A stretch of DNA of 64,000 nt, taken from Cymodocea nodosa. Its lineage: Eukaryota; Streptophyta; Magnoliopsida; Alismatales; Cymodoceaceae. Numbering within the stretch: the first letter of the stretch is position 1; every line of letters begins with the position of its first letter. Under the pieces are notes generated by a model. It had not been told where the DNA came from. It did no database searches and was given only the letters and a program-made list of their open reading frames with translations. Below are positions 1 to 59,574 of the stretch, piece after piece. The translations under genes were made by a program, and so were the position numbers. The stretch covers positions 5,552,501-5,616,500 of the forward strand of contig CM072344.1 in the NCBI GenBank assembly GCA_036874045.1. Reading direction: 5' to 3'.

Positions 1-1611
1 TTATGCTATATTAAATAACTAGTCGTTAAGTTATATTAACTTTTCATTTAACTAAATGTTAAGTTAACATGTGTTTTTATTGTAAAGCATGATATGTTTT
101 ATAGTTACATTTTCTATATCATATACAATGCACGTTATGACAACTTGTTGAGTTAGTACATTATTTGTATAAAGGTCACGTGAGAACTCCTTGAGTTATA
201 GGCTTAAAGGTTAAAATAGGTTACGTGAGAACTCATTAAGTTAGTGAACAAAAGGTTAAAATGAAGAGACGAACTCGTTAAGTTAGTATTATGCACGTGT
301 TGAAATTAAAGTTTACGAATGTTATATTGTATCACATGAGTTGCACATGTTTAACTCTTTAAGTTAACATAACTACACACGTTGAGTTACTATATTGAAC
401 ACTAAGGTAATGCATTAGGTTAGCGTTATAAACTTAAAGTTATTATTATTTCACGTGGTAAATACCTTATTGTAAAAACATTTATTTATTACTAGATCAA
501 TGAGTTATTAGGATTTTCAGAAACTTGCAACCGTAACTATCCGAAACTCAAACTGTTTTTGGTGAGTTAGCATCTAACCTTTCGAAAGATAACTTAAGTC
601 ATGTTTCCAGGTTACGACATGTGTCTCACTAGTTTTATGATAAAAAGATATTTTGGATACTTAGAAAACTTAACTATCTGATACTTAAACACTTTTCGAT
701 GAGTTAGCATTTAACCTTTTGAAAGACAAGTTAAGCAGGTTTGTTGAGTTAGTGTAACACTTTGGACTTAGTTCATTGAGTAAGCTATAGTACTTGTCAC
801 ATGATTTGGCACATGATGAACTCATTAAGTTAGATACGTTAAGTTATAAATCTACTTGTTTTACTCATTTAGTTAACATTAACACAACAACTTGTTATTA
901 CATTTGATGAAAAAAATTTTGACGAGAAAGTTTATTTTGTAGGAAATTTTTCAAAGATTCAAGATTAATGATTAAAGAAAATTCAAAAGGAAAATGTGGG
1001 TTAGAACGTGTGTATTTTGATGAAGGAAAAAAAGATGTGAAGAGTGGAAAACTAATTATGGTTAAACGTGAAGGAAATGCATGAAATAAATATACAGTAT
1101 AAAAGGCATAGAATTCTCGTTGATCAATTATCCCTACATACCAAACTAAATATATTTTTAGGGATCAAAACACCTCTCCAAGGAAAAGCTCTTAAATAGA
1201 AGAAAATTCAGTGAAGCAGAGAAAGTCAGATATATGTCACTGAAGATTTGAAAAATCAAAAGAAAGCAAATTTAGTGAAGAAGAAAAAGCCAGATATTTG
1301 TCACTAAAGAATTACAGAGGAAGAAGAAGAAGAAAAAGAAAAATCTCAAATAGGTAGAAATGTTTTAAATTCTGCAAATTAGTTTTCTCTATTTGTAGTT
1401 ATGAAATTGATTAGATGAACTATGGTATCGCTATATAATTGCATCTATAATTTTTGAGGAGAATTGAATTGTATATTATAATTGAAACCTTAAATAAAAT
1501 GATTTGATTAAAACAGTGTCTCAACTTGTTTTTAATTTTGAATTTTCAATTATAATTGAAAATGTTGAAAAACACAATTCACCCTCTCTTGTGTAACCAT
1601 TCAATCCTACA
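1..1611 (+). repeat. 5' LTR of E1, 5' end cut by window
   Basis: It aligns throughout with the LTR at 40936-42629 and, reversed, with 5767-7610. It ends in atcctaca two bases before the primer-binding site. By comparison with the other copies, about 160 bp of LTR start are missing. The left third carries many AACTCGTTAAGTTA-type motifs and CACGTG-like boxes; a TATA box lies at 1098. Confidence 0.9.
1098..1106 (+). promoter_or_regulatory. LTR TATA box (TATAAAAGG)
   Basis: TATAAAAGG is kept at the same place in the other LTRs of the family (42179-42187 on +; 6570-6578 and 29151 region on -; 15331 region as a one-base-shorter form). It is followed by the conserved block around gaattctcgttgatcaa, a likely start of R. 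Confidence 0.7.
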
Positions 1612-4022: not shown

Positions 4023-5766
4023 TAGGAGAAAACAACATCAAAATGGATTTTGGATAGTAGAGCATCAAGTCACATGACTAGACAGAAAAACCTACTGAAA
4101 AATTTTACAAATACTAAGAAAAGAAATGTAATATTTGGAAACAAAAGCAATGATAAAATCATAGGTATGGGTAATGTTCAAATAACTCCTACTTGTGTTA
4201 TTTTGAATGTACTATATGTAGAAAACCTAGGATTTAATTTGTTGAGTGTTATAAAATTAATTGATAATGGATACTATGTACTATTTGAAGATAATGTATG
4301 CAAAATTATTGATAAAATTGCAGATGAACTTAAGTTTATTACTATAAGAAAAGGTTCTATATGTATTTTATCTTTACCTTCTAGAGTAGTTGATTTAAAT
4401 TCATGTTTGCTAGTTGAAACTAGTGATGCATATCTTTGGCGTAAAAGGATCGAGCATATAAATATGAAACTATTACATAAATTATCTAGAAAAATTTAGT
4501 GAGAGGTTTACCAAAGATTAAGTACTCAAAAGATTTCATGTGTGATGCATGTGAGTTAGGTAAACTTCATAAAAACTCTTTTAAATCCAAAATTGATATA
4601 TTAAGCAAGAGAGTCTTAGAACTTATACATATGGATCTATTTGGACCAACAAGAACCATGAGTCTTGGTGGTAAACGATATGTATTTATTTTAGTAGATG
4701 ACTTCTCTAGATACACTTGGGTATATTTTCTAGCAACTAAGACAAAAGATTTTGAAACGTTTAAAATGTATTGCAATCTTGTTCAAAATAAATAAAGTGT
4801 TTCTATTCAAAAACTTAGGAGTGATCATGGTACTGAATTTGAAAATGATCAAATGGATAATTACTGTAAAGATCATGGCATTGATCACATATATTCTTTT
4901 CCAATAGCACCTTCTCAAAATGGTGTTGTTGAGAGAAAAAATCGATCACTTCAGGAAATGGTCAGAACTATGTTAAATAAATATAATTTACCTCAAAACC
5001 TTTAGGCTGAAGTAATGAATACAACTTGTTATATTATTAATAGAAGTCATTTAAGACCTCTTGTTAATAAAACTCCTTTTGAAATTATGTATGATAGGTT
5101 TCCAAAAATTTCCAATATGAAACCATTTGGCTGTAAGTGTTTTATTCTTAGCACTAAGGATAAAAGAGATAAATTTCAAGCTAAAGTCGATGAAGGAATT
5201 TTTGTAAGTTACTCTACTAGAAGTAAAGCCTATAGAGTTTATAATAAGACTTCTAGAACTATTGAAGAAACCCTTCATGTGAGCTTCAATGAAAATTCTT
5301 TTAGAGAATCAAAATCTAAAGCTCATAATGATGATATGATCAATTTCCTAAAAGAATTTGAGATTAATAAAGAGATCGAAGATTTATTTGAGAAAATTAA
5401 AAATATAAACTTAAATGATTAAACTAATGATCAAAATGATGTACTTTCAGATATTGATGGAATATTGAGGAAAATCATAGAAATTAGCATTATTCTTCAT
5501 CACATCCCATCACTCAAGTCATTGGTAACATTAATGAGGGAGTAAAAACTAGGGCTTCAGTAAATTTAAATAATATGTGTATGTTCGTTTCTATGGTGGA
5601 ACCAAAGAATATGGAAGAAGCATTATCTGATGAAAATTGGATAGTGGTAATGTAAGATGAACTAAATCAATTCATAAGAAATGATGTGTGGGAATTAGTT
5701 TCTCTACCAAAAAATCAATCCATAATAGGTATAAAATGGATCTTTAGAAATAAAACTAATGAGACT
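4023..5766 (+). pseudogene. pol: Copia pol, 5' half: protease, GAG-pre-integrase, integrase, start of RT
   Basis: The protease motif is visible from 4044 (Trp-Ile-Leu-Asp-Ser-x-Ala-Ser-Ser-His) but the catalytic-loop Gly of Asp-Ser-Gly is Arg. A GAG-pre-integrase zinc region (4430-4590) and the integrase core (4610-5200, with His-Met-Asp-Leu-Phe-Gly-Pro and Tyr-Ser... Val-Glu-Arg signatures) follow. The frame changes at about 4499, and stops occur at 4793-4795, 5003-5005 (TAG where the family has Trp), 5420-5422 and 5653-5655 (TAA where E2 has Gln). The RT start reaches 5766, where E2 interrupts; coding resumes at 16096. Confidence 0.85.
5762..5766 (+). other. Target-site duplication of E2, left copy (agact)
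   Basis: agact at 5762-5766 is repeated exactly at 16091-16095, flanking E2. Five bp is the normal size for LTR retrotransposon integrases. Removing E2 and one copy restores the RT frame. Confidence 0.95.
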
Positions 5767-7610
5767 TGTAGGATCGTATGGCTACATAAGAGGGGGGTGA
5801 ATTGTTTATTTTTAATATTTTCTGAAATATTATTGAAACTTTAAAACTCAAAAACAAGTCGAGACATTGTTTTCATAAAATCATTTTTATTCAATGTTTC
5901 AATTACAATATACAATTCAATTCTCCTCAGAAATTGTAGATGCAATTATATTTCGATACCATATATCATCTAAACAATTTCATAACTACAAACAGAGAAA
6001 ACTAATTTATGGAATTTAAAACTTTTCTCCTTGTTTGAGATCTTTCTTCTTCTTCAGCAATTCTTTAGTGACGAATATCTTGTCTTTTCATGCTTCACCG
6101 AATTTGCTTTCTTCTATACTTCAAATCTTCAGTGACGAAAATCTTACCTTTTTATGCTTCACTGAACTTTCTTCCTTCTGATACTTCAAATCTTCAGTGA
6201 CGAAAATCTTACCTTTTTATGCTTCATTAAACTTTCTTCCTTCTGATACTTCAAATCTTCAGTGACGAAAATCTTACCTTTTTATGCTTCACTGAACTTT
6301 CTTCCTTCTGAAGCTTCAAATCTTCAATGACGAAAATCTTACCTTTTTATGCTTCACTGAACTTTCTTCCTTTTGATACCTCAAATCTTCAGTGACGAAA
6401 ATCTTACCTTTTTATGCTTCACTGAACTTTCTTCCACGTGAGAGATTTTCCCCGAGAAGGTGTTTTTGATCCCTAAAAAGATTTTTCTTTTGGTGTGCAG
6501 GGATGGTTTGATCCTTGAAAAGATTTTCTTTTTGTGTGCAAGGATAAATTGATCAACGAGAATTCTATGCCTTTTATACCGTATCTTCATTTCATGTATA
6601 TCCTTCACGTTTAACCACCACCAGTTTTCCACTTCTCTATGTCTTTTCTTTTTCCTTCATCGAAACACACACGTTCTAACCCATGTTTATATTTCGAATT
6701 TTCTTTAATCATCAGTCCTAGATCTCTGAAAAATTTCCTGCAAAATAAACTTTCTCGTCCAAAAGTTTTTCATCAGTGTAATAAGAAGTCGTTACTTTAA
6801 TGTTAACTAAACGAGTAACACAAGTATATATATAACTTAACGAGTTCCTCATGTGCCATTTCACGTGACAAGTACTGTAGCTAACTCAACGAACTAAGTC
6901 TGTGGTATTATGCTAATTCAACGAACCATCTCCGTTGTGTTATGATAACTCAACGAACCATCTCCGTTGTTTTATGATAACTCAACGAACCAGTAATAAA
7001 CAAATGTTTTTATAATAAGAATTTTACCATGTGCAAAAATAACAACTTAAGTTTATAACGCTAACCTAACGTGTTGCCTTAGTGTTCAATATAGCAACTC
7101 AACGCGTTTAGTTATGTTAACTTAACGAGTTAAACATGTGCACCTCACATGATACAATACAACATTCGTAACTTATAATTTCACCACGTGTATAACACTA
7201 ACTTAACAAGTTCGTCTCTTCTTTTACTCACTAACTCAACGAGTTATCACGTGACCTATTTTAACCTTTAAGCATCTAACTTAACGAGTTCTCACGTGAC
7301 TTCTATACAAACAAAACTCTAACTTAACGAGTTGTCTAAACATGCACTGTTCATGATACAGAAGATATAACATTAAAACATATCATGCTTTTCAATAAAA
7401 ACACACGTTAACTTAACGTTTAGCTAAATGAGAAATTAATGCAACGAAACGACTAGTTATTAACTTCAGATCCAATACAGACAAGTATTTATATCAGTAA
7501 GCTTTTTCTGTATTAATTGATGATTTTAATTTCTTTTCATAAGCAATAGTAATTGAGCAAATATGATTATTTTCATTCAGCACACATCATTAAAACAAAA
7601 ATACTCAACA
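5767..7610 (-). repeat. 3' LTR of E2 (1844 bp)
   Basis: On the minus strand it starts TGTTGAGTATTTTTG and ends ATCCTACA, so TG...CA is present. It is preceded in element sense by the PPT at 7611-7625. It holds a TATA box (rc of 6570-6578), a five-unit 65-bp tandem array near 6121-6445 and, at 6800-7440, about a dozen AACTYAACGAGTT-like palindromic motifs, several followed by TCACGTGA. Confidence 0.95.
6121..6445 (-). repeat. 65-bp tandem repeat (about 5 units) inside E2 LTR
   Basis: The string tcaaatcttcagtgacg recurs at 6121, 6186, 6251, 6316 and 6381, an exact 65-bp period; one degenerate unit precedes it. Each unit holds TTCAGTGA and, about 25 nt on, TCACTGAA, an 8-bp inverted repeat able to form a hairpin. 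The other E2 LTR carries 4-5 units (14944-15195), while E1 LTRs and the solo LTR have only one or two degenerate units. Confidence 0.9.
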
Positions 7611-7625
7611 ATCTCCCCCTTTTTG
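7611..7625 (-). other. Polypurine tract of E2
   Basis: On the minus strand this reads AAAAAGGGGGAGAT directly against the LTR start TGTTGAG. It primes plus-strand cDNA. A second PPT-like run (minus-strand reading TAGGGGGAGA) lies at about 7918-7928; multiplied PPTs are reported for Sireviruses. Confidence 0.85.
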
Positions 7626-8112
7626 ATGATGACAAAACCATATTAAATCAATTATGAAATATGTATAACTCAACAAAGCACCCTTCATTGGGTTAACTTT
7701 TAATTCAACAAACTTGTTTGTTGACTTAAGTTCACTTAAGCTATTTCTATTATTTGTGTAAATTTTACCTCTCAGAACTAAAACTCTAAAATGTCAATAA
7801 TTATATAAGTATCAGTTTTCTAATTATCATCTGTCAAATTACAATAACCATTTAAATAGCATCTCCTTTTATAATATATATATGCAATTAAGATCATAAT
7901 CATCTTTTTATAATATTTCTCCCCCTATTTGTCATTAATAAAAAAGATAATTACAAAGAATATATATACATATATAAGAGAATTACAATTACAACAACTC
8001 TTTCTGTAAACAAGAATAATAATTGCAGATATTTACAGAAAAATGTATTGTTCAATGAATCAAACAAGTAATACAAACATTACATTTTGTATTCAGAAAC
8101 AAACAAAAATAG
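7626..8112 (-). other. E2 3' untranslated stretch between accessory ORF and PPT
   Basis: No ORF is seen. It contains a CGTTGAGTTA-like motif pair (about 7660-7740), long AT runs and the extra PPT-like sequence at 7918-7928. E1 keeps the matching stretch at about 40500-40921. Confidence 0.6.
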
Positions 8113-10398
8113 TTAGTGACCCCTCCTAAGTATATCACTTATAGCATTACATATTTTATCTCCTAGATGCCTAATATCATTTCTGATGTCATTAAGCACT
8201 GCATCTAAGTCAGGAAGTAGCTGGGTTTGCTATTCTGCTTGAATTGAATAACTTTGTTGTTGTTGTTGTTGTATATGGTCTGTATCAGGTTGTTGTTGTT
8301 GTTGTCGTTGAGGTTTATGCATGGCCTGGAATTTTTGCAAATCTTTGACACTAAATGCTCTCATGCCTTTAGGTTCAGAGGGCCAGTCGGATAAATTCAA
8401 TTGGCTTACAATGAGTCTACATACAGCATCACCATAAAATAACTTTGAACTCATATGCTGTAGTTGAGAAGTGAAAACATCAAACCAATTGATTTGAATT
8501 CTATTCAGCAAGCTATAAGTTGCATATAAACAACTTCTGCTGACTTCCATATTGTGTCCAACTCTCTGAAATAAATTTGCATGTAATATAATTGCAATAA
8601 ACCTTGCCTCTGCATTCAGATTTTCCATTAATCTCATTTCAGAATATACATCTGGAATTTTTGATAAAGACTGAATGTTCCATTCTAGTTGTCTTATCAT
8701 GTCAAATATGTTGGTAACAACAACACCTTCATTCTTTAATCCCAAAACTTCAAAAATTAACTCAGGAGACAATAGAAACTCCTATTCATTTATTTGAGTC
8801 TTCAGAAAATTTTCATTCTTGACTAGATTGCTATAAAAAGCTGCAATAAGCATTGTGTATTGCTTCCATTTCGTTCCTATTGGCAAGAATTTAATGAGGC
8901 CTTGAAACTCAAATAGATCTCTTATGTCCATCAAATTTTTGAATTTTATTGGACGAGCATGCAGAATCTGACATATAATCAGATTATTGTATTTCTGCAA
9001 TGCTTCTTTAGATCTAAAATGAATTGTATTACCTTGAATGTTTAACATTGTACACAAAGAAGGTGATACCTGAAGCCGTGATTCAGAGTTTAATTCATCT
9101 TCAGGAACCTCTTCTTCAAAATGAATGTCATGTTGTTCCTCTTCCAAAATATTATCTTGAAGTTGCTCAGGTAAGCTTGATTCTCCAGCTTCAATAGTGT
9201 TAGGAATATTGTCAATATGTTCAACATTCATTTGTTCAGTCTCTATAGAATGTTCAGAGTACAATTTTTCCACAAATTCTACAGCCGATGTATCTGTCTG
9301 TAATTGTTCATTTTGTTCAACAAATATTTCCATTGATTCATGCTGTGAATTCTCAGACTCTGCTTCTATAGAAGGCTGGTTAACTTTTAGCTCTTTTGGA
9401 GTCTTAACAATTTCAATATTTGCTACTTCAGACAATTCAGCCTCTGAACTAGTTACTGCCTCAACATTGTCAATTATATCTACAATAACTTGTTCAATGT
9501 CAGGTGCCTGATGCTCTGATTTGTCAATTTCTACATCATCAGGACTTGTATTAATAGAAAAACTTTAGCTCATATTTGACTTGTATTTCTTCTCAAGCTT
9601 TCTAGCAAGGGAAAATAAAGTCTCATTATCTTCATCAGTTTCAGTGTGTTCGGAACTGATGAGTTTATCAGATGCACAATAAGGTACAATGTCTAGACAT
9701 ACATTGTCCTTTGGAAATAAATTTTCATCTGATTGTCCTTTTCCAATAGACTTTGTTTCCTTAGAAATAATTTTTCTGATTTTTCTTCTTCTATAACATT
9801 TCTGTTTCTCCTCTTCAAGTATTGCTGTTTTCTTTTCAAATTGCTCCATAAAAGTTTTCTGCTTTAATTCTTCTAAGGCATTTTCTATTGCAACGGCCTT
9901 TCGAAGACTATCAACTTTTGTTTTGTCTACAACAATATCTGATTCTACTTGTTTTGAATATAAAGGAGTAGGGACAACTGATTCATGCTCTTCCTCAAAT
10001 GCATGTAGTCTTGTACCGTTTATAGGAGTTTGAGGAGTTCTATTTGATGAACCTACACCTTTTTCCAAATATTTTGCATACTGTTCCAAAAATGCAATCT
10101 CAGTACATTTCATTCTGTATTCTCTATTATATTTACTTCGAATACCCATGTATGTAATACTTGCATTAGTATGTTAAAGTTCTTGTCTAACTTCATCTAA
10201 TATATCTTGAGAAAAGAAGTAATCTCTATAAAGTTCTTCTAACCTTTTGTCCACTCGAAATATTTTCTTGAACCAAATACGTGGAACTTCATCATTCTCT
10301 ATTTCTTTTCCTTTTGCATCTCTTCTGCTTTTGCCTTTTCCTTTGCCACGACCTTTGTAGAACTTGGAGACCATCGTCATAGGTTGTAACAGCAACAA
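8113..10398 (-). pseudogene. Accessory ORF downstream of copia pol (about 760 codons), homologous to the gypsy accessory ORFs
   Basis: Four open pieces (10398-10174, 10149-9565, 9435-8782, 8772-8230) lie in one minus frame separated by single stops; a last TAG at 8230-8232 is followed by 38 more open codons to 8113. The N-terminus has a basic Gly-Lys-Arg tract resembling a nuclear signal, then a Lys/Glu-rich middle and a very acidic Glu/Gln region. From about 9030 to 8380 lies a globular domain: Phe-x-Ser-Lys-Glu-Ala...Lys-Tyr, Leu-Phe-Glu-Phe-Gln-Gly-Leu, Phe-Tyr-x-Asn-Leu, Gly-Leu-Lys-Asn-Glu-Gly and Lys-Leu-Phe-Tyr-Gly-Asp. The same blocks occur in order at 26157-28373, 51843-54104 and 62039-64000. 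A Gln-rich tail follows. The layout recalls the 'putative plant transposon protein' domain (PF20167); that match is a guess. Function unknown. Confidence 0.8.
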
Positions 10399-10454
10399 GC
10401 GGGAAAGATTTTCTTGACAAAGTTTACAAATAACCTAAGTCCCCGTGTTATAAG

Positions 10455-10490
10455 TGTTTAAATAGGGTTTTTAGGCGTATAACTCAACGT
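10455..10490 (-). promoter_or_regulatory. Putative promoter of the E2 accessory ORF
   Basis: On the minus strand a CGTTGAGTTA-type motif (rc of 10481-10490) is followed about 16 nt on by TATTTAAA (rc of 10457-10464), some 60-90 nt before the accessory ORF. The gypsy copy has the same order before its accessory ORF (25870-26060: motifs, then TTATTTAAAC). This is inference from position and conservation. Confidence 0.4.
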
Positions 10491-10498
10491 GAAGATAA

Positions 10499-11960
10499 GT
10501 CGGGTTTAGAAATGAAATAAATATTGAATAAAGTTTATTCAATCAAGGTACCCGAAATATTCAAGTATAACTCGTTAAGTTAACTAACCTAATGAGTAAA
10601 ATGCTGTCTAGAGGCAGTTTTACACGTTACCTTATCTAATATAACGTCTAGTTAGTACACTTAAACAAGTTTCAAATGCTTCCAACTAAAACCTTCCAAA
10701 AACAACACACATGCTAAACTTAACATTATCTTGAGAACATTGTAAACTATTTGAACATTTTGTCTTTTGAATCTAGAATAGTTTATTTGTCTTTTTAAAT
10801 AATTTCATCAAGATTTTAAGAGGACATTAATTCAGATTAAGTAAGATTTGTATTTTAAATTATATTAATCTGTTTTTGACATTGTTAATGCTCCCCTACA
10901 AATATACTTCAAATATATTCAATCAAAATACAAAATATACTTGTAGTGACAATAGATGTTAAGTATAACTATACTTTTACATTTTCTTTTCAAAGACTTC
11001 CGTTATCCTGACATCATCAAAAATGATTTCCAGAATCAATTTCTACTATATATGAATCAAAACACAACTTTGAACTCAATTCGATTAATTCAAGGAGAAT
11101 AAAAGAATGTATCTCAAATAAATGTTTTCAAAAGTACTAATGCTGATTCAATAAATCGGTAGTCATATTGGTATAAACTATATGCGATTCAAAGATATCT
11201 GTAATTAATGAAACAACTTTTTCTTTTCAAAACAGTAAATATTGATAATTTTCTTTAAAAGTTAGTTTGAAAAGCTTGAATCATACAAGAGCTTTCTAAT
11301 GTACCCGTGTAATGAGCTTTCAGTCTACAATCCCAGATCTGATCAGGACCTTAGGTTGCCAGATTTAAAGAATCCTTTTTCAGGACAACAATCCTTACAT
11401 ACCTATCTGCTCAAGTACAAAAGGCTTGTGATCAAACTAATCAATAAACTCTCAAAAATTTTCACTTTGTAAGCACTTTTCATTTTAAGCACAGTATATA
11501 TGTATTCCATTAATACAGATGCAATAAAACACAAATCTCATACAATTTTTACTTCTATGATTATACTGAGAATATGAATCAATTTCAATAAGCTTATACT
11601 TTTGATTAGTAGTTTAAGACGAGTTACATATAACTTATTCTACAAGTTTAATCAATTAAGTCAAATTTATGCATGATCATATGCATTTTCCTCGATTCAA
11701 AGAAAACATTTAATCAAAATTTCAGAATGTCAGAAGTATTTAATGTTTTTCATTTACACTTCCACTTAAAATCGTAAAAATCATTAAAATTGATAAACTA
11801 CTTAAAATCAATAAGATACTACTATGATTTTACAATAAATACATAGTATCTTAAGCAGCAGTTTAGATATTACTTTAGATATTTATAATAAGTATATAAT
11901 ATCTATGAGGTGAACAACATCATCAATAATATTTATCTTTTTATGTGGAGTTTAAGCATT
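10499..11960 (-). other. Post-pol non-coding block of the copia family, partly shared with gypsy E3
   Basis: No ORF is seen. In element sense it runs from the end of RNase H to the accessory ORF. About 10890-11760 matches 34440-35370 of gypsy E3; for example, both contain AAATCTGGCAACCTAAG followed by a CCTGATCAGAT block. E1 has the same block in pieces (17437-17760, 37625-37918, 39756-40262). Its downstream edge reads TATTTGTAGGGG in copia and TATTTGCAGG in E3, resembling a 3' splice site, so an intron or subgenomic-expression role is possible. Confidence 0.7.
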
Positions 11961-13885
11961 TTACACATCACATAGCCTACAAATACCTAAATTTAATCTA
12001 ATGTTGCAGAATGTACTTTCGTCTAGAGGTTTTGTAAATATATCAGCTAATTGATTTTTACTAGACACAAATTTTAATTTAATTTTTCCTTTAATTACGT
12101 TATCTCTTAGAAAATGATGTCTAACCTCTATATGCTTTGCTCTTGAATGTAATACAGGATTTTTGGAAAGATTTATTGCAGAACTACTGTCACAATAAAT
12201 CTCAGTTGTATCATAAGATAATCCAAAATCTTCTAAAGTTTGCCTTATCCACAGAATCTGAGTGCAACATAGTGCAGCAGCAACATATTCAGCTTCTGTA
12301 GTAGAAAGTGCTACACAGTTTTGCTTTTTACTAAACCATGACACCAAATTATTTCTCAATAATTGACATGTGCCACTAGTACTCTTTCTATCAGATTTAG
12401 ATCCTACATAATCAACATCAGTATATCCTATAAAATCTATTGAACTATCCTTAGAATAATACAGTCCGAAATTTTTAGTTCCTTGTATATATCTAAATAT
12501 TCTTTTAACTGCAATTAAGTGTGATTCCTTAGGATTAGATTGAAATCTAGCACAAACACACACAGCAAACATAATATCAGGTCTACTAGCAGTCAAATAA
12601 AGTAAAGAACCAATCATACTTTTGTATTTTCTTTGATCTATAGATTTTCCTATGTCATCAATATCTAACTTTAAAGTAGTACTCATAGGAGTTCCTCGAA
12701 TCCTTGTATCACTAAAATTAAATTTCTTAAGCATTTCATCTGCATATTTTTCCTGATTTAAAAATATACCTTTATCCATTTGCTTAATTTGAAGTCCTAG
12801 AAAATATGAAAGTTCTTCTATCATACTCATTTCAAATTGATTAGACATCTCTTCAGAGAATATTTCTATCAACTTATCAGAGGTTGCTCCAAAGATTATA
12901 TCATCCACGTATATTTGAACAACAATCTAATCTTTACCATCTCTCTTAATAAATAGAGTATGATCCACTTTTCCCATGATATAGCCTTTTTCTATTAAAA
13001 AAGTAGACAATCTTTCATACCATGATCTAGGTGCTTCCTTCAAACCATATAAGGCTTTCTTCAATTTATACACAAAGTCAGGATTTTTAATATCTTCAAA
13101 TACAGGTGGTTGTATTACATAGACTTCTTCATTAATTAAACCATTTAGAAATGCACTCTTTACATCCATTTGATATAATTTAAAATCCATATAACAAGCA
13201 TAGGTCAATAATATTTTAATACTTTCTAACCTAGCCACAGGAGCAAATGTTTCATCATAATCTAATCCTTCTTCCTGTGTATACCCTTGTGCAACTAATC
13301 TAGCTTTATTCCTTATAATTTGACCAGTTTCGTTAGTTTTGTTTCTAAAGATCCACTTTGTACCTATTATGGACTGATTTTCTGGTGGAGAGACTAATTC
13401 CCATACATCATTTCTGATGAATTGATTTAGTTCTTCTTGCATTACCACTATCCAATTTTCATCAGATAATGCTTCTTGTATATTCCTTGGTTCCACCATA
13501 GAAACAAACATACACATACTATTTAAATTTACTGGATCTCTAGTTTTAACTCCCTCATTAATATTACCAATGACTTGAGTAATGAGATGTGATGAAGAAT
13601 AACGCCAATTTCTCTGATTTTCCTCAATATTCTCATCAACATCTGAAAGTCCATCACTTTCATCATTAGTTTGATCATTTAAGTTCATATTTTTGATTTT
13701 CTCAGATAAATCATCAATCTCTCTATTGATCTCTAACTCATTTGGAAAATTGATCATATCAACATTATCAGCTTTAGATTGAGATTCTCTAAGAGAATTT
13801 TCATTGAAGCTTACATGGAGGGTTTCTTCAATAGTCCTAGAAGTCTTGTTATATACTCTATAGGCTTTACTTCTAGTAGGGTAAC
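11961..13885 (-). pseudogene. pol: E2 pol, 3' half: integrase tail, reverse transcriptase, RNase H
   Basis: One frame, broken by a single TAG at 12927-12929 (E1 has Gln there), carries the integrase C-terminal part (Val-Tyr-Asn-Lys... about 13885-13760), the RT beginning Trp-x2-Ala-x2-Glu-type linker and Thr-Lys-Trp-Ile-Phe (about 13360), the palm motif Tyr-Val-Asp-Asp (12900-12911) and the RNase H with Thr-Asp-x-Asp...Ser-Thr-x-Glu-Ala-Glu (about 12440-12290). It ends with Cys-Asp-Val and a TAA at 11961. RT and RNase H convert the element RNA to cDNA in the particle. Catalytic residues look intact, so E2 was active recently relative to E1. Confidence 0.9.
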
Positions 13886-14500
13886 CTACAAAAATTCCTT
13901 CATCCGATTTGGCTTGCTTGAAATATCAGTTTTGGATTTAAAAGAGTTTTTGTGAAGTTTACCTAACTCACATGCATCACACATAAAGTTCTTTGAGTAT
14001 TTAATCTTTAGTAAACCTCTCACTAAATGTTTTCTAGATAGTTTATGTAACAGTCTCATATTTATATGCCCAATCCTTCTATGCCATAGATATGCATCAG
14101 CTAGCAAACATGAATTTAAATCAACTGCACCAAAAGGTAAAGATAAAATACATACAGAACCTTTTCTTTTAGCAATAAACTTAATTTCATCTATATTTTT
14201 ATCAATTATTTTGCATACATTATCTTCAAACACTACAAAATATCTATTTTCAATTAGTTTTATGACACTCAGCAAATTAAATCCTAGGTTTTTTACATAT
14301 AGTACATTCGAAATAACACAAGTAGGAGTTATTTGAACATTGCTCATACCTATGATTTTATCTTTGCTTTTGTTTCCAAATGTTACACTTCCTTTCATGG
14401 TATTTGTAAAATTTTGTAATAGACTTTTTTGTCTGATCATGTGACTTGATGCTCCACTGTCCAATATCCATTTTGATGTTGTTTCCTCCTGCAACATAAA
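13886..14500 (-). pseudogene. pol: E2 pol, 5' part: protease and GAG-pre-integrase, integrase core deleted
   Basis: The protease motif Trp-Ile-Leu-Asp-Ser-Gly-Ala-Ser-Ser-His-Met is intact at the start, unlike E1. The GAG-pre-integrase segment follows, with His...His and Cys-x2-Cys (Met-Cys-Asp-Ala-Cys). At about 13905 sequence matching E1 4605 is joined directly to sequence matching E1 about 5190, so some 585 bp of integrase core is lost. The junction sits in an aagc-rich stretch and shifts the frame. Confidence 0.85.
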
Positions 14501-14691
14501 TTAAGAAAAACTTTTTCTTGGTACCCAATGTTGTTGAGGACCAAGTTCATTAAACGCATATTTCTTCTTTTTGTTTAAAAATAGTTTAACATTGTCATTT
14601 ATATTCTTATTAGTTGTAAGTACTATTGATTTATCATTAGCTTCATACTCACATATAGCATTATTGCTTTTGCAATCATTCCTTTTGTTTT
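14501..14691 (-). other. E2 remnant upstream of protease, ending at deletion junction
   Basis: The reverse strand matches E1 about 3837-4030 (gag-pol linker with the Gly-Pro-Gln-Gln-His-Trp-Val-Pro motif). At about 14692 it is fused to the LTR about 76 bp inside its end, so gag and PBS are deleted. Confidence 0.8.
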
Positions 14692-16090
14692 CATAAATAT
14701 AATTGAAACTTTAAAACTCAAAAACAAGTCGAGACATTGTTTTCATAAAATCATTTTTATTCAAGGTTTCAATTACAATATACAATTCAATTCTCCTCAT
14801 AAATTGTAAATGCAATTATATTTCGATACCATGTATCATCTAAACAATTTCATAACTACAAACAGAGAAAACTAATTTGCGGAATTTCAATGATGAAAAT
14901 CTTACCTTTTTATGCTTCACTAAACTTTCTTCCTTCTGATACTTCAAATCTTTAGTGACGAAAATCTTACCTGTTTATGCTTCACTGAACTTTCTTCCTT
15001 CTAATACTTCAAATCTTTAGTGACGAAAATCTTACCTTTTTATGCTTCACTAAACTTTCTTCCTTCTGAAACTTCAAATCTTCAGTGACGAAAATCTTAC
15101 ATTTTTATGCTTCACTGAACTTTCTTCCTTCTGATACTTCAAATCTTCAGTGATGAAAATCTTACCTTTTTTATGCTTTACTGAACTTTCTTCCACTTGA
15201 GAGATTTTCCCCGAGAAGGTGTTTTTGATCCCTGAAAAAGATTTTTCTTTTGGTGTGCAGGGATGGTTTGATCCTTGAAAAGATTTTTCTTTTTGTGTGC
15301 AAGGATAAATTGATCAACGAGAATTCTATGCCTTTATACCGTATCTTCATTTCTTGCATATCCTTCACGTTTAACCACCACCAGTTTTCCACTTCTCCAT
15401 GTCTTTTCTTTTTCCTTCATCGAAACACACATGTTTTAACCCACGTTTATATTTCAAATTTTCTTTAATCATCAGTCCTGGATCTCTGAAAAATTTCCTA
15501 CAAAATAAACTTTCTCGTCCAAAAGTTTTTCATCAGTGTAATAAGAAGTCGTTACTTTAATGTTAACTAAACGAGTAACACAAGTATATATATAACTTAA
15601 CATTTCTAACTTAACGAGTTCCTCATGTGCTATTTCACGTGACAAGTACTGTAGCTAACTCAACAAACTAAGTCTGTGGTGTTATGCTAATTCAACGAAC
15701 CATCTCCGTTGTGTTATGATAACTCAACGAACCATCTCCGTTGTTTTATGACAACTCAACTTAACGAGTTCTCACGTGACCTCTATATAAACAAAACTCT
15801 AACTTAATGAGTTGTCTAAACGTGCACTATTCATGGTACAGAAGATATAACATTAAAACATATCATGCTTTTCAATAAAAACACACGTTAACTTAACGTT
15901 TAGCTAAATGAGAAATTAATGCAACAAAACGACTAATTATTAACTTCAGATCCAATACAGACAAGTATTTATATCAGTAAGTTTTTTCTATATTAATTGA
16001 TGATTTTAATTTCTTTTCACAAGCAATAGTAATTGAGCAAATATGATTATTTTCATTAAGCACACATCATCAAAACAAAAATACTCAACA
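14692..16090 (-). repeat. 5' LTR of E2, truncated at its 3' end and internally deleted
   Basis: It matches 5767-7610 from about 76 bp in, ends at 16090 with ...ACTCAACA (rc TGTTGAGT), and lacks about 300 bp near 15755 relative to the partner LTR. It holds 4-5 copies of the 65-bp repeat (14944-15195). Confidence 0.9.
14944..15195 (-). repeat. 65-bp tandem repeats in E2 5' LTR
   Basis: tcaaatctt recurs at 14944, 15009, 15074 and 15139, again exactly 65 bp apart, with the TTCAGTGA / TCACTGAA inverted pair in most units. Confidence 0.85.
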
Positions 16091-16095
16091 AGACT
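16091..16095 (+). other. Target-site duplication of E2, right copy (agact)
   Basis: Identical to 5762-5766; E1 RT coding resumes at 16096. Confidence 0.95.
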
Positions 16096-17765: not shown

Positions 17766-18631
17766 TGTTTAGAATGAAAAAGTGCATAATATTAACGGTT
17801 AAATGATGGTTAATTGCATAATATTTAGCTTATCATATTGATATAGATTTTTACATTTCACCTTTTGTCCATTTTCATGAACATCTCAAAACAAAAATAC
17901 CAAAAACAACAACTTATCTAATTTTATATTTAGTATTTAAGTGTTGTATTGTTTGTTTTGTATCGTGATTAAAGTTATCATTGTCAGTATTGTGAATGTT
18001 TTATGTTTGTTTGATTCAGAAAATAGAAAATAGTATTACAGTTTACTGAAATTAATTCGTTCCAGGTACTTCAAGATTTTAATGGTTACTATTTGAAATA
18101 TTTGAATGTTAGTATTGCTTAATGATAAATCTAATATTAACTAGCATTAAAGAGCTTAATTGATGTTATTTACAATCTGTGTAACTGCCCAATGGTTGGC
18201 CGAATTCCTTTGTAAATAGCAGTATTAAACTAGAAAGATAGGCTCGTGGAGTTAACTTAAGTCCACGAGATTAGTCCGTTAAGTTAGCCATAACTCCACA
18301 AACTTAGTCCGTTGTATTAACTGTAACTCAATGGAGTGATTACTAAACACATTAAGTATAATATAAAAAAACAGAACAATACACAATTCTTACTCAATTC
18401 TCTATGGGATCGACCTGTACTTGCACACAAATACAATATACACTGTGCACTTGCAATTAAAATACAAATTGGAATTAATATCTAATTTGTTTGAAAGGTT
18501 GTTTGTTTACTTCTAAAAGAAATTATTGATATAAGCATAAAGACAAATTAACCAAGTTAAAAATAGAAGTTAACAAATCCAAGTTTTATGGCGTTGTTGC
18601 TTGGGAACTAAAGAAGTTCTCTGGTGCCGCC
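17766..18631 (+). repeat. E3 LTR1, outer 5' LTR with large internal deletion
   Basis: It starts TGTTTAGAATGAAAAAGTGC. At about 17837 it jumps to sequence equal to LTR3 about 36815, a loss of about 1.1-1.2 kb that removed the TATA region. It stops at ggtgccgcc, 14 bp short of the LTR3 end, exactly where LTR2 begins. LTR1 and LTR3 share a terminal extension containing a PBS-like TGGCGTTGTTGC that LTR2 lacks. Confidence 0.85.
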
Positions 18632-20799
18632 TGTTTAGAATGAAAAAGTGCATATTATTAATAGTTAAATGATAGTTAATTGCATAATATTTAGCTTATC
18701 ATATAAGAATTAAGCCATTAAGTTATAATTGCACTATTATATGCTTTAATTGAAGAATTTGCTTAATTTGGGGGAACTAATGTTAATTTAGTACATTTAT
18801 GAACTATCAGTAAGTTGCAGGTTGTGAAATTCTTAAGTATCCAAATTTTCTGATATTTCGGATAGTTATGTTTAGCATACCGAACAAATTCGGACAGTTA
18901 TGCCTAGCAAATCGAATATGTATCAGATAGTTATGTTTAAATTGTCGAACAGTTATGTTTTGAGAGAATATTTTATTATTTCCTGAAGTACACGTGTCGA
19001 AACCATAATGAATGACTTAAGTGAACTTTCGGTGAGTTATCTATAACTATCTAAAATTGCAGCTAAGCATCGGATAGTTATCCCTGTAACTCTCCAAAAT
19101 CTCTTTTTATTTATAAAATAGCTGAGGACACGTGTCATGTTCTGGGAAAGTGACTTAAGTGGATTTTCGGTGAGTTAGTTGTAACTATCCGAAATGCATC
19201 TGAGCATCGGATAGTTAGACCTGTAACTCTCCGAAATGTTATTTTATGATTAAACTACTGCTGACACGTGTTGAGATCTAGTAGATTTACTTAAGTTATA
19301 TATCGGTGAGTTATTTATAACTATCTGAAATGCACCTGAGCATCGGATAGTTAAATTTATGCACGTGTTTTATAGTTAAATCAACGAAGAAAGTCCATTG
19401 AGTTATCTGTAACTCCACGGACTATATATTTTCTAATATGCCACTGTAGCGGTTGCAAGAACAAATAGTTGGAAGAGAAAAACCACATTTGCATGTATCA
19501 CGCAGGAATTCAATCACGCAGGGAGAAGAAAGCATTGTCATTGATATGAATGAAGGAAATCCAACTGACCATTCAAGTAGAAGTAGTTACTACTGAAGAA
19601 ATATAAAAGAAAAGAAGAAAAAAAGAAGAAAGTGTGTGTGATCGATGGGCAGACAGTGTGTGCAGAGAAGGATCGACGTTGCAATTCTCTAAAGTACCAC
19701 ACCAACCATCATCATCACCACCATCACCACACCATAATCACCAATCATCGGAGGTCTATGAGGATACTTGCCTGATGTTGGGTCGATTCCGAGCCAAACA
19801 TAGTGCTTGACAACCACTGTGAAGAGTGATCGTGTCGCAGGAAGGGAAGCCATTTTCACCAAGCACCGACTCATATTTTAGGAGATCGTAAAGCTTTTAG
19901 CCTTAGCTTCGGGTTGATGCCTGTATGCCGAAGAGGAGATCATCTTGCAATTCTGGACTCGCGATTCTATAGGGAGAGGAGACAGAATTGTAAGTGATTT
20001 AATTTTTAGTGGTGTAATCGCATTGCAAGTAGTGTCGGAAGTATTTACTGTCAAGTGAGATTACTTTACATTTCACCTTTCGCCCATTTCCATGTTCATA
20101 TTAAAACAAAAATACCAAAAACAATTTATCTATGTTTGTATGTTGTATTTGAGTATTGTATTGTTTGTGTTGTATCGTGATTAATGTTATCTTTGTCAGT
20201 GTTGTGATTGTTTTATGTTTATTTTAGTTTTACAGTTTACTGAAATTGGTTCGTTCAAAAGACTTAAAGATTTTAATGGTTACTATTTGAATTATTTGAA
20301 CGTTAGTATTGTTCAATGATAAATCCAATGTTAACTAACATTAAAGAGCTTAATTGATGTTATTTACAATCTGTGGAATCGCCCAATGGTTGTCCGAATT
20401 CCTCTATAAATAGTAGTATTAAAAAAAGAAAAGACAGGCTCGTGGAGTTAAGTCCACGAGGTTAGTCTGTTGAGTTATCCATAACTTAACGAACTTAGTC
20501 CGTTGAGTTAATTGTAAGTCAACGGAGAGCTTATTGAATATATAAATTTGATTTTTAACAAGCAAACAGTTCTCAAGTTCGTCAGCAATTCCCTGTGGGA
20601 TCGACCTATACTGGCACACTGATACAATAGACACTATGCACTTGTAGTTAAAGTACAAATTGGAATTAATATCTAAATTGTATTAAAGGTTGTTTGTTTA
20701 CTTCTAAAAGAAAGAATAGGCATAAAGATAAATTAACTAAGTAAAAACAGAAGTAACAAATCCAAGTTTTTCTAGTGTAGTGCTGGGAAAACCCAAACA
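18632..20799 (+). repeat. E3 LTR2 (2168 bp), adjacent to PBS
   Basis: It starts TGTTTAGAATG and ends CCCAAACA, followed by a 7-nt spacer and the PBS. TATAAAAG lies at 19602-19609. The 18840-19440 part holds repeated TCGGATAGTTA / TAACTATCCGA and TCGGTGAGTTA motifs; 20440-20530 holds CGTTGAGTTA-type motifs. A conserved antisense ORF lies at 19689-19874. Confidence 0.88.
19602..19609 (+). promoter_or_regulatory. Gypsy LTR TATA box
   Basis: TATAAAAG is kept in the other LTRs of the family: 36349-36356 (+), 39096-39103 (-) and 60751-60758 (-). A purine-rich leader follows. Confidence 0.65.
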
Positions 20800-20806
20800 A
20801 GTTTTA

Positions 20807-20823
20807 TGGCGCCGTTTCCAAGG
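20807..20823 (+). other. Primer-binding site of E3, tRNA-Asp-like
   Basis: TGGCGCCGTTTCCAAGG, 7 nt after LTR2, resembles the Athila-type TGGCGCCGTTGCCGGGG. E4 has the degenerate equivalent at 59551-59567. Confidence 0.8.
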
Positions 20824-25551: not shown

Positions 25552-26156
25552 TAAGAAATCAGTTTTTATGTTTATATATATATATAAAAAAAAACATTAA
25601 AAATATATATAAAACATAAAAATCGTTGCAGTTCAACCGACTAGATCCATCGATATGACCGGAACATAAAAAAAATGTATATTAATTTTCAAAAAAAAAT
25701 ATTGGTTTTACCGAAACATAGTATCAGTTCAACCGAAAGAAAAATAAATAAATAAATAAATAATAAAAAATATTTAGGTCTGACCGAAACATAGTATCGG
25801 TTAAACCGGTAAAAAAAACATAAAAACTATTCTTTGTAATATTTTTATTGTTATATTTGCTTTTATAGGGAGTCCGTTGAGTTACGCTTAACTCAACGAG
25901 CTTACTCCATTGAGTCTTGAGTTAGTCAACGAGCTTATTCCATTGAGTTAACTGTAACTCAACGGAATACTGTAGCTAAGACCTCGGATATAATAGTAAT
26001 AGTTGGTTCGGGAAATGACCCGATTACCCGCCTAAACTTAAGGCTTATTTAAACTAAAACCTAGGGTTTTGGGGGCATTATCTGGCAAATCATTTAGAAT
26101 CTAGAACAGTAGAAATCAGAGCAATTCTGTGTTGTGTGTAACTCCACGATGAGAAG
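25552..26156 (+). promoter_or_regulatory. E3 leader of accessory ORF: palindromes, hairpins and TATA-like box
   Basis: Right after pol there are A-rich tracts and repeated ACCGAAACATAGTATC units with CGGTTAAACCG palindromes (25621-25820). Then 25869-25970 carries several CGTTGAGTTA / TAACTCAACG motifs, including a stem of about 14 bp with a 4-nt loop at 25937-25968. TTATTTAAAC at about 26046 is a TATA candidate about 110 nt before the ATG at 26157. E4 54105-54826 keeps the same order. Confidence 0.5.
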
Positions 26157-28373
26157 ATGACACCTGAATTCTAGGAAGAGGTAGTTGACACTGCACAGTT
26201 TCTGAAGGAATCTGAAGAATGGCACACAAGGTAGAAGATCAGAAATACAACAAGAGAGAAAGAGCTACAAAAGGTAGAATCAGAACTCTTTAACTTGAGA
26301 AAAATTTTGGTTGAGTTAGAAATACAGATACCACAAATAATGGAGACACGAATTAGAGTGGCAACTGAAATTGCATTAAGTAAAGAAAGAAAGATACGGC
26401 CAAATAATGAAGTAGCCCTAGAATTAATCCAACGAAAGTCCCGGCTTTGGTTAAAGAGATGAATCTGTAGACGAGCTAAATGGGTGATCTAGGAGCAAGC
26501 AAGGAAAGAAAATGAAGAAGAGGCAACTGAAGAACAAGAGGAGCCGACTACTGAAAGACCTATTCCTGAGGAGCAGCAGCTTGGACCTTCAGTTCCACCA
26601 TTTAAGCCATTGGCACGAGTAGAAATGATGGGGCCTTCAACTGAAGAAGAGATAAGAGAATTTTCAGAATTGGTTCAAGTTGGGAAGAACCAAGGAGAAT
26701 CAGAAGATTTGGCAATGGCCAAAGCACACCTAGTGTTTGATGCACTTTACAAAAAGAGGGCTGCAAAAAAGTTGAAAGCCCAATATAAAATCAAATTGGA
26801 GCAGCATCACGAAGCTACTGCCAGAACTGCTGCGAAACCTGCTGCAAAAGGAGATGAAGTTGGTCCTTCGAGACCAGTAATTATAGGAAAAGTTAAACAG
26901 GAAGAGCCAGTACCTATGGCTCGAAGGCCTATAGAGCCTATTTTTGTAGATTTAATTTCAAAAGATGAAGAGAAAGAACAGGCACAACTAATCAGAAAAA
27001 AGAAAGGAAAAGAAAAAGTGCTTGAATATGAGGAAATTAAATCTGAAGTACCAATTTTTACAAGGCCTGTAGAGCAGATTTTTATTAACCTGTTATTCGA
27101 TTTTGAGGAGGAGCAGGAGGAGCAAAGAAAAGAAAAAAATCAGGTTGAAATTAGTCTACAGCCTATACAAGAAGAAACAGAAATTAGGGCAGAAATTGAA
27201 TTGCCCGTGACTCCATCCTAATCTGTTACAGAATTAGAAAGAACAGTAACAGAACAGATTGGTAGTCAGGTGGAAAAAGAAAGAGTAGAAAATGAAGAGG
27301 CTGAAAGAAGCCATTTGGACAAAAATAATTTCACAGATTCCACTAAAGAACAAGAAACTCTTCAACAATTTATGGAGAGAATTCAAGATAGAGTGGAGAG
27401 TTCTGCCAGCTCACCATCACAAACAAAAACAGAAATTCAGGAATCTGTAGAAAATATTCAAATGCAGCCTATAGAAGAGGAAGAGGAAGAGCAAACCCCT
27501 CTAGAGCAACAAAGTCACCTTCCTGACCCGACTAAAACAACAATTTTGAATGAAGTACATTTTTGTAGTCAGGAAGCTTATACCAAATATCAAGAAATAA
27601 GGGGTTACGACATTATTTACAGTAGACCAATAAATTGGGATGGAATGCAAGAAATCAAAGAATTATTTGAATTCCAAGGTCTACTGCAATTTATATCTCA
27701 AGAAAGAGGGCATGTAGTATATGAGAATTTAGTGCCCTGTTTTTATGCTAATTTGAGAGAAAGAGAAGGAGAATTAATTTCAAACGTGGAGGAAGCTGAT
27801 GTATAGATAACACCAGAGCTTCTCTACAACATTTTTGGTTTAAAGAATGAAGGAACAAAAATTTTGGAAGATACAACTGCAGTTGTATGGATTGAACAAC
27901 AAATTAAGGATTGTTTAGCTATCAATCCTGATGTACCATTATTAAATAGATTGAAGCATTTAAATGGTAAAGCACACATGGTAGCTAACATTCTGATTAA
28001 GAATGTCTATCAACAATAGGGCCATGACATAGAATTAAGTCAATTTGTCAAATGGGCCACATATGCAGTTGTAAATAAGATCCAAATAAATTGGTCTGTA
28101 GTTTTTATCTCCAAGCTGAAAATAGTGAAGAAGAAATTATTTTATGGAGATTTGATTCCACTATTGATGGTGGACTGTATCGATTTCACTAAATGGACAT
28201 CAAAAAGGATCAGATCAAGAACCATTTCAATGAAAGAATACAGAAATTTTGTAGTTGCAGAACTAGCTGTACCTTCTGGAGGAATTACAGGAGCATTAGA
28301 GAAGATTAATCAATTAGAGCTTCAATTAGAAAAACTCCAGAAGGAAGTAGATGAACTTAGGCATAGAGATTAA
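26157..28373 (+). pseudogene. E3 accessory ORF (739 codons, in-frame stops)
   Basis: One frame runs from the ATG at 26157 to the TAA at 28371-28373, with stops at 26172-26174, 27219-27221, 27804-27806, 28017-28019 and a few between 26230 and 26490. The N-terminal part is Lys/Glu-rich and probably helical; the middle has repeated acidic blocks with Ile/Phe-Val-Asp-Leu-Ile motifs. From about 27530 to 28280 lies the globular domain shared with copia E2: Phe-x-Ser-x-Glu-Ala...Lys-Tyr, Leu-Phe-Glu-Phe-Gln-Gly-Leu, Phe-Tyr-Ala-Asn-Leu, Gly-Leu-Lys-Asn-Glu-Gly, Ile-Gln-Ile-Asn-Trp and Lys-Leu-Phe-Tyr-Gly-Asp. A coiled coil ends it. It resembles the 'putative plant transposon protein' domain (PF20167, unverified). 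Role unknown. Confidence 0.8.
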
Positions 28374-30345: not shown

Positions 30346-31077
30346 CTGCTTAAAAATTTCTGCATGTTATAAGGTAAAATGTAAATTATGTATAACATAA
30401 AATGACCTGCAAGTTAAATCTTTATATAATGCTCAGATTTAAACGTATTTTAATTAGAATGATGCATTAATGACATAGATTTAACTTTATTATAGTTAGT
30501 AGAATGAAAAAAAAAAAAGAACAGAGAGGAACTTACAAGAGTAAAACTTAGAAGTTGCCAAGTGTTAACTCAACGAAGAAAGTCCGTTGAGTTAACTGTA
30601 ACTCCACGAGGTCAGTAATATAATATAAAGTCACTCCGTTGAGTTATCTGTAACTCAATGAAGTTAGTCCGTGGAGTTAGCAATAGTAACCAACTGTATT
30701 CTGTTGAGTTTTCTGTAACTCAACGAGGTTAGTTTGTGGATTAAGCAGAACAGTTATTCTTTTAACCACGAACGAAACTTCGTCGGTTTAGCGGTTACCA
30801 AAATTTGAAATTAGTAGTGGTACACGTACCCATAAAAACAAGAACAACGATGCATGTTGCAAGCCACGTTCTTGCAACGAGATTTATTCACTTTATGGAT
30901 GCGTAGTATATATATAAAATAGAATGTTATTTACAAGTTACCAGCACTTTTAAAAGAAAGGAGAATGCATTGGAGGAACTGGAAGGAGAAGCAGCTAATT
31001 CAACTTCATCCGACAACAAATATTTATAGAATGGAAAGCTTCAGACTAGTATGCAATTAATCTTCTGCTATTTATTT
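30346..31077 (+). promoter_or_regulatory. E3 leader of the downstream gag ORF: hairpin motifs and TATA box
   Basis: No ORF. Bases 30560-30750 hold at least four CGTTGAGTTA-N4-TAACTCAACG-like inverted pairs. TATATATAAAATAG at about 30909 lies about 165 nt before the ATG at 31078; E4 has TATAAATA at the matching place in both copies of its leader (about 46850 and 47625, minus sense). I infer an internal promoter. Confidence 0.45.
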
Positions 31078-59559: not shown

Positions 59560-59567
59560 CGGTGTTA
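59551..59567 (-). other. Primer-binding site of E4, degenerate
   Basis: Minus-strand reading TAACACCGTTGCTAGGG corresponds to TGGCGCCGTTGCCAGGG with G-to-A or C-to-T changes; it lies 7 nt from the LTR end. Confidence 0.75.
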
Positions 59568-59574
59568 GAAAACT

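Follow-up and report, generated by a model that had tools for sequence, protein, structure and literature searches.

VANC is an accessory transposon protein that removes the silencing of its own family, the VANDAL elements; VANC21 binds a 9-bp motif located in non-coding DNA of its own family, and the action of VANC6 extends to an unrelated family with its motif (PMC5735166). Among retrotransposons with long terminal repeats (LTRs), the Sireviruses carry repeated boxes, with a CGG-CCG core in most but not all members, that are concentrated in the LTRs and upstream of the envelope-like gene, ENV (PMC2829016). Extra open reading frames (ORFs) in sense orientation were reported in 74% of SIRE elements and fall into 19 groups that resemble one another little; the share of Athila elements with Athila ORF-1 was 16% (PMC6317226). 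In sunflower, an Athila ORF has a partial match to the family PF20167 (PMC11728184). The origin and function of the envelope-like genes of Sireviruses and Athila has been called unknown, speculative or controversial (PMC3414828, PMC6317226, PMC7264820). When plant LTR elements were surveyed for unusual domains, with the well-described ones excluded, 15 were reported, all in gypsy elements (PMC9289625). We analysed a 64,000-nucleotide stretch of Cymodocea nodosa DNA (assembly GCA_036874045.1, contig CM072344.1, positions 5,552,501 to 5,616,500; called the window below), in which a Sirevirus-type Ty1/copia element, E2, and three Ty3/gypsy elements, E3, E4 and E5, carry accessory ORFs with a homologous domain. 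The analysis covers this one window of one plant, and its four ORFs are broken.

The locus resembles the Sirevirus ENV-like gene (eORF-3'F) in that a sense ORF lies between pol and the 3' LTR after a long linker, that the octamer AGGGGGAG is repeated after the ORF, and that boxes occur in the LTR and upstream of the ORF (compare the relevant parts of PMC2829016). It differs from the known Sirevirus ENV genes in that its domain is homologous to that of a gypsy ORF and in that its product has no convincing transmembrane segment by hydropathy. Its boxes differ from the known Sirevirus boxes in that they have no CGG-CCG core and are also present in a gypsy element. As in VANC/VANDAL, a short motif is repeated, partly in tandem, in the non-coding parts of elements that encode an accessory protein (PMC5735166, PMC10398659; both in part). 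Unlike in VANC/VANDAL, the elements here are LTR retrotransposons rather than DNA transposons, and the binding of the boxes is only putative; the VANC domains DUF1985 and DUF287 gave no Pfam match in E2-E5. A further parallel is found in the LTR elements of bdelloid rotifers, whose ORF3 types were apparently exchanged between distant retroelements; unlike the plant case, these are DEDDy and GDSL enzymes, for which the cited part of that report describes no shared cis motif (PMC5408684). Among the open-access papers listed by our searches, as judged by titles and abstract openings and leaving supplements aside, none describes an ORF domain or a box that the two superfamilies have in common.

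The accessory ORFs and their common domain

The ORFs and the domain that they share lie as follows.

5767-16090, minus strand: E2, Sirevirus-type Ty1/copia element, delimited by the target-site duplication (TSD) AGACT and TG...CA LTR ends
8113-10374, minus strand: E2 accessory ORF, 753 codons plus stop, with four in-frame stops and no frameshift
8314-9075, minus strand: shared C-terminal domain of the E2 ORF, from the four-row alignment A2, BLASTP and shuffles
26157-28373, plus strand: E3 (Ty3/gypsy) accessory ORF, about 738 codons, seven internal stops; domain at 27522-28265
51843-54095, minus strand: E4 (Ty3/gypsy) accessory ORF, about 750 codons, more than seven internal stops; domain at 51957-52700
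62039-64000, minus strand: E5 (Ty3/gypsy) accessory ORF, interrupted by stops and truncated at the edge of the window; domain at 62147-62890

The first-pass annotation had claimed that the same accessory ORF, of about 740-760 codons, follows pol in E2 and in the gypsy elements. We observed that BLASTP of the whole ORFs (stops entered as X) aligned E2 with E3 at 36% identity over 246 positions (E 2.7e-45), with E5 at 31% over 255 positions (E 3.1e-37) and with E4 at 32% over 234 positions (E 2.0e-36). The local scores of the E2 domain against those of E3-E5 were 352-407, i.e. 52-68 standard deviations (SD) above shuffled sequences, whose maximum was 79 (500 shuffles per pair). In the alignment A2, where stops were read as Q or W, 67 of the 254 columns are invariant, and these include FE.QGL, FY.NL, LKNE and KLFYGD. 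BLASTP, the shuffles and the colinear motifs thus bear out the claim for a C-terminal domain of about 250 amino acids.

Other parts of the claim stood less completely. The ordered motifs it had listed are indeed colinear: FYxNL and KLFYGD are exact in all four ORFs, FEFQGL in three (E5 has one change and a stop inside the motif), and GLKNEG in E2 and E3 (E4 and E5 each differ from it at one position). The length holds for E2 and E4; E3 is marginally shorter, and only about 653 codons of E5 are visible. The supposed common layout (Lys-rich, acidic, domain, tail) is only loosely true beyond the domain. The N-terminal parts of E3, E4 and E5 scored -0.1, 3.9 and 4.6 SD above shuffles against E2, and the tails 0.0, 1.2 and 1.6 SD. 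With so little similarity beyond the domain, the shared layout is mainly a matter of composition.

The gypsy ORF evolved under purifying selection. The ratios of nonsynonymous to synonymous substitution rates for the three gypsy ORF pairs (E3, E4, E5) were 0.20, 0.18 and 0.26 for domain plus tail, and 0.32, 0.44 and 0.58 for the N-terminal part. This estimate covers the gypsy ORFs; the Sirevirus ORF is represented in the window by one copy and a tail.

PF20167 (Transposase_32) had been offered as a first guess for the domain. The gypsy ORFs resemble the Athila post-pol ORFs (PF03078; PF20167 in sunflower Athila, PMC11728184, in part) in their position and in a weak similarity to PF20167, with 23.1 bits for E3, 21 for E4 and 19.7 for E5. 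Unlike a PF20167-type Athila ORF, they remain far under the curated cut-off of 45 bits, and the E2 ORF gave no match at all, so that this family is a distant relative at best. The mutual match of E2 and E3 reached 158-162 bits, against 23 bits for E3 and its best Pfam family. In the protein database, the E2 domain found no relative at E<=0.01 among 194 candidate proteins of about 141-450 amino acids (full-length E2-like proteins were not searched), and residues 475-734 of E3 found none at E<=0.01 among 1562 candidates of about 404-1284 amino acids. A control with the gypsy pol established that this database does contain plant retroelement proteins: 7988 related pol proteins were scored, and among the best 120 listed, the named ones were from plants. 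Viral contigs gave nothing when searched by E3, by alignment A2 or by the box-pair pattern described below, and solved structures gave a single match at E=1, which we judged to be chance.

The assignment of the ORFs to their elements rests on these further features.

5767-7610, minus strand: E2 3' LTR, with 96.2% identity to the 5' LTR (1386 bases aligned)
7613-7620, minus strand: E2 polypurine tract (PPT) AGGGGGAG, from a pattern scan, starting 10 bp upstream of the 3' LTR
11961-14500, minus strand: remnants of E2 protease, integrase, reverse transcriptase and RNase H (PR-INT-RT-RH; RVT_2), from ORFs, with PF07727 at 2.5e-14 for 11961-12926
14688-16090, minus strand: E2 5' LTR; the blastn self-comparison stops at 14688
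20807-20819, plus strand: E3 primer binding site (PBS) TGGCGCCGTTTCC, after the 5' LTR
about 40280-40490, plus strand: remnant of the same accessory ORF in E1, consisting of tail residues, frameshifted, with the rest of the ORF absent

E2 sits inside the pol of E1, another Sirevirus-type copia element, and is flanked by AGACT at 5762-5766 and 16091-16095. In its own orientation, its order is 5' LTR, PR-INT-RT-RH remnants, a 1.5-kb linker, the ORF, the PPT and the 3' LTR. The stretch 8113-10398 reads in one minus frame, with a Met at 10374 and the terminal stop at 8113-8115; the in-frame stops are TAA, TAA, TAG and TAG, and the other two minus frames have 49 and 93 stops. By sequence inspection, the inner end of the 5' LTR, the PBS and gag are absent from E2, and a single internal deletion probably explains their loss. 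If we assume a rate of 1.3e-8 per site per year, the LTR divergence corresponds to an age of about 1.5 million years. The RVT_2 match was found directly, and the motifs of the E2 reverse transcriptase (RT) are presumably SIRE-like. The gypsy-type RT matched PF00078 at 5.8e-25; TGGCGCCGTTTCC may be a tRNA-Asp-type PBS, and by its general features the gypsy lineage is presumably Athila-like.

Nested insertions abound in the window, and the ORF at 8113-10398 might have been an artefact, i.e. part of a gypsy fragment nested within E2; the first-pass annotation had named this as the finding that would overturn its claim. The TSDs, the LTR ends, the PPT and E1 all place the ORF in E2. A PPT octamer AGGGGGAG starting 10 bp before the 3' LTR is a published Sirevirus signature (PMC2829016, in part). 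E2 has it in that position with a second copy further inward at 7919, and E1 carries it twice, at 40926 and 40189; both elements thus show the Sirevirus pattern of an octamer before the 3' LTR and additional copies within the linker. As an independent Sirevirus insertion, E1 repeats the order pol, linker, ORF tail, PPT, LTR, and this rules out the nested fragment. Because E1 has both the octamers and the ORF tail before its own 3' LTR, the accessory ORF is a Sirevirus component rather than a piece of nested gypsy DNA. The blastn matches of E1 to 6975-8355 and to 10816-11331 both stop near 40270. The E2 ORF region was also without a blastn match to the gypsy ORFs (E 1e-10, 150 bp), and we regard the chance of such an artefact as negligible.

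LTR DNA common to both superfamilies and the origin of the ORF

We observed that the LTRs of the two superfamilies share DNA in two segments.

185-457, plus strand: E1 LTR segment 1, matching gypsy LTR 61254-60993 (minus) at 72.6% over 277 positions
534-687, plus strand: E1 LTR segment 2, matching the gypsy LTR region 17836-20806 at about 19064-19217, inverted, at 72% over 157 positions

Within segment 1, E1 LTR 271-424 matched gypsy 35947-36091 (plus) at 80.5% over 154 positions. The gypsy partners of this segment are the LTRs 61552-59550 and 35540-37606, in the same orientation; on a solo Sirevirus LTR, it lies at LTR positions 322-551, corresponding to positions 299-529 of the gypsy LTR. 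Segment 1 was present in all three Sirevirus LTRs tested and in two of four gypsy LTR stretches, and segment 2 in two of the three Sirevirus LTRs. The shared segments scored 152, 147 and 64 bits; with the gypsy LTRs shuffled, the best score in 50 sets was 34.6 bits. When the boxes described below were masked, parts of both segments still matched (best E 4e-8 for the first and 1e-9 for the second). These segments are independent evidence of DNA traffic between the superfamilies. A piece at 34588-35393, adjoining the gypsy LTR at 35540, is 77% identical to the E2 pol-ORF linker; this is possibly Sirevirus DNA in a gypsy element, or an older nested fragment.

The pols behave quite differently from the ORF domain. 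E2 RT-RH against E3 PR-RT scored 45, where 300 shuffles had a mean of 42.6 and an SD of 5.7, i.e. 0.4 SD. The pols had been called unrelated at this level. Pairwise, RT similarity is indeed lacking, but the score shows only a divergence far greater than that of the ORF, and not unrelatedness. As no comparable RT similarity exists, the shared ORF domain is not left over from an ancestor common to copia and gypsy. That the ORF descended with pol from such an ancestor was therefore ruled out as a candidate (RT at 0.4 SD, against 31-36% identity for the domain), and common descent of the two together appears very unlikely from these sequences.

The alternative put forward by the first-pass annotation, that the ORF was either exchanged or captured twice, is supported by the domain scores of 352-407 against the RT score of 45. 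If related genes had been captured twice, independently and with no direct exchange, from a larger family of plant or transposon genes (a PF20167/Athila ORF-1 pool), this would fit the weak PF20167 matches of E3-E5 and the 19 groups of SIRE extra ORFs, for which Neumann et al. inferred multiple sources or very fast evolution (PMC6317226). However, E2 and E3 are far closer to each other than to Pfam, LTR DNA is common to both superfamilies as well, and database searches with the E2 and E3 domains gave no relative at E<=0.01 although gypsy pol proteins were plentiful. We consider double capture unlikely. Because the LTRs of the superfamilies also share DNA, and because the E2-E3 match is much greater than the Pfam match, the evidence leans to exchange: a Sirevirus and an Athila-like Ty3/gypsy lineage of one plant probably exchanged the ORF.

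The 11-bp boxes and what may read them

An 11-bp motif, TCGTTGAGTTA, recurs in the non-coding DNA of both element types. Allowing one mismatch, we found 90 matches in the window where 1.17 would be expected; none of 100 shuffles had more than 4. These fall in Sirevirus LTRs (36), Sirevirus internal DNA (5), gypsy LTRs (20) and gypsy internal DNA (29), 89 of the 90 being outside the coding DNA recognised in the two element types. No box was found in E1 gag-pol or in the pol of E2, E3 and E4 (four stretches, about 14.8 kb), nor in the second gag and F-box stretches scanned. The three accessory ORFs scanned (E2, E3, E4) held one box in total, at 26308. Boxes were also absent from the E5 post-ORF stretch and the E3 leader. 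The principal groups, from a motif scan, are these.

6804-7330, minus strand: ten-box array in the E2 3' LTR
10480-10582, no strand assigned: two inverted TCGTTGAGTTA-type boxes upstream of the E2 ORF, at 10480 and 10572
25874-26149, no strand assigned: four boxes between E3 pol and the E3 ORF, the first two forming an inverted pair
30566-30726, no strand assigned: six-box cluster downstream of the E3 ORF
54331-54407, no strand assigned: three boxes between E4 pol and the E4 ORF

In E2, the ten LTR boxes with two more before the ORF follow the Sirevirus pattern of LTR boxes with extra copies upstream of ENV; the LTR boxes read TCGTTGAGTTA, TCGTTAAGTTA and near variants, and a CGG-CCG core is not among them. 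In the gypsy elements, the boxes are often paired in inverted orientation at a distance of 15-16 bp (8 pairs), and in the Sirevirus LTRs they are mostly same-strand repeats 32 or 43-45 bp apart. When boxes were masked, their 60-bp flanks fell into 14 context clusters, and as only one of these mixes the superfamilies, the boxes are not merely copies of one segment. The 9-mer CGTTGAGTT ranks first in the DNA flanking the gypsy ORF and F-box gene (9 against 0.014 expected). It occurs five times in the E2 3' LTR (0.023 expected), three times in the E1 3' LTR (0.012 expected), and once each in the E2 and E1 5' LTRs. Between E3 and E4, boxes in the pol-ORF and post-ORF DNA were 91-97% conserved, against 54-78% for their surroundings (shift p 0.0000-0.026, four of four comparisons).

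We propose, by analogy with VANC and tentatively, that the exchanged module may comprise a non-envelope accessory protein together with its DNA boxes. The trans part would be the sense ORF between pol and the 3' LTR, whose product would have a charged N-terminal half (probably disordered), the conserved domain of about 250 amino acids and a short amphipathic tail, the disorder and the tail being judged by eye. The cis part would be the arrays of TCGTTGAGTTA boxes in the LTRs and around the ORF. The product would be nuclear and oligomeric on the boxes, and it would relieve the silencing of box-bearing elements, or activate them, as VANC does for VANDAL. Common boxes would let the protein of one element act on the LTR of the other, so that spread of the module by recombination would be favoured. 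That the protein binds the boxes is conceivable on this analogy, with the odds somewhat against it. It is more doubtful that a portable anti-silencing or activation module, i.e. a putative DNA-binding protein with its repeated targets, moved between the Ty1/copia Sireviruses and the Athila-like Ty3/gypsy elements. If it did, the 'envelope' genes of plant elements would be trans-regulators of box-bearing LTRs across superfamilies. The homology of the domain between the superfamilies, together with the LTR DNA and the motif beside the gene that they have in common, offers a concrete, testable answer on the envelope-like genes; these findings suggest that unrelated retrotransposons of one genome can share a control system, tying their activity and silencing together.

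Several observations weigh against this proposal. A single window served both to discover the box motif and to test it, and boxes had already been noticed in the gypsy stretches when these were chosen for the 9-mer ranking. Exact CGTTGAGTT is absent from the solo Sirevirus LTR, which has CGTTAAGTT instead, and CGTTAAGTT is absent from the DNA flanking the gypsy ORF and F-box gene. In 12 of the 16 conservation comparisons (4 F-box flanks, 8 Sirevirus LTRs), the boxes were not significantly better conserved than their surroundings, and in one of these they were less conserved (0.50 against 0.81); the test itself starts from boxes intact in one copy, which favours conservation. As the two element types fill much of the window, a good negative control for a link between ORF and boxes is lacking. 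AlphaFold models of the domain (two runs, four-row alignments) had a mean predicted local distance difference test score of 37-38 and were unusable, and no DNA-binding fold was seen in them. Repeated boxes upstream of ENV, of other sequences, have already been reported in Sireviruses (PMC2829016, in part).

A host factor could also be the reader of the boxes. In this main rival, the exchange is real, and the ORF and boxes are functionally unlinked, the boxes being host transcription-factor sites used as promoters that moved with the LTR segments. It accounts for the LTR DNA common to both superfamilies and for boxes in LTRs and where an internal promoter of the ORF would be; the sites could, for example, be MYB-like. 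For Sirevirus boxes, nuclear factors have been suggested and stress-related binding factors listed (Bousios et al., PMC2829016, in part). But there are box clusters on either side of the F-box gene and downstream of the accessory ORF as well, in surroundings that cannot be aligned between the superfamilies, and the ORF is common to both superfamilies too; we hold this rival to be a serious one, though rather doubtful. That the boxes are RNA hairpins (for packaging or as small-RNA substrates) and that the protein binds RNA seems improbable. Three of three gypsy box clusters would fold strongly as RNA (z -5.2, -6.3 and -7.5), as would the E2 pre-ORF pair (z -3.9), whereas three Sirevirus LTR stretches, with mostly same-strand repeats, were unremarkable (z -1.7, -1.0 and -0.25). 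Because the Sirevirus LTR stretches do not fold unusually well, the feature common to both is a half-site in duplex DNA.

An envelope-like membrane protein is what the post-pol ORFs of Sireviruses and Athila are often said to encode (PMC3414828, PMC7264820; both in part). The sense position between pol and the 3' LTR would suit such a protein, as would the tail, which is coiled-coil-like by eye. Hydropathy revealed no convincing transmembrane helix, however: the maximum 19-residue mean was 1.04-1.52 in the four ORFs (E5 incomplete, and no dedicated predictor was used). The E2 protein starts with a Lys/Arg/Gly-rich stretch that has no evident signal peptide by eye. With no convincing membrane helix in any of the four ORFs, an envelope role was rejected as the leading reading on hydropathy; it is, in our view, very improbable here, and the accessory protein is very probably a non-envelope one.

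Other features of the window

An F-box gene (PF00646, 3e-11 for the first copy) occurs at 32616-33839 (plus) and 43862-45137 (minus), the copies being about 90% identical. Each adjoins a gypsy gag stretch and has boxes on both sides, and the gene is apparently a host gene captured by the gypsy lineage. The solo Sirevirus LTR lies at 28593-30345, downstream of the E3 ORF, and is flanked by the 5-bp duplication CTGCT. Between E3 pol and the box cluster, at 25630-25810, symmetric repeats of a second family (around CGGTT...AACCG) were noted by eye. A 1.3-kb direct duplication (91.5%) inside E4, at 48535-51176, is box-free.

In E3 and E4, a gag N-terminal region (30347-32196 and 45598-48187) follows the accessory ORF instead of preceding pol, with no LTR between; this seems to be a rearranged or tandem element that multiplied. 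At 17766-20806, a truncated LTR with a PBS-like stub is followed by a full gypsy LTR, and at 59550-61552 a single gypsy LTR has E5 and E4 around it. LTRs in contact with, or shared between, neighbours in this way suggest tandem elements.

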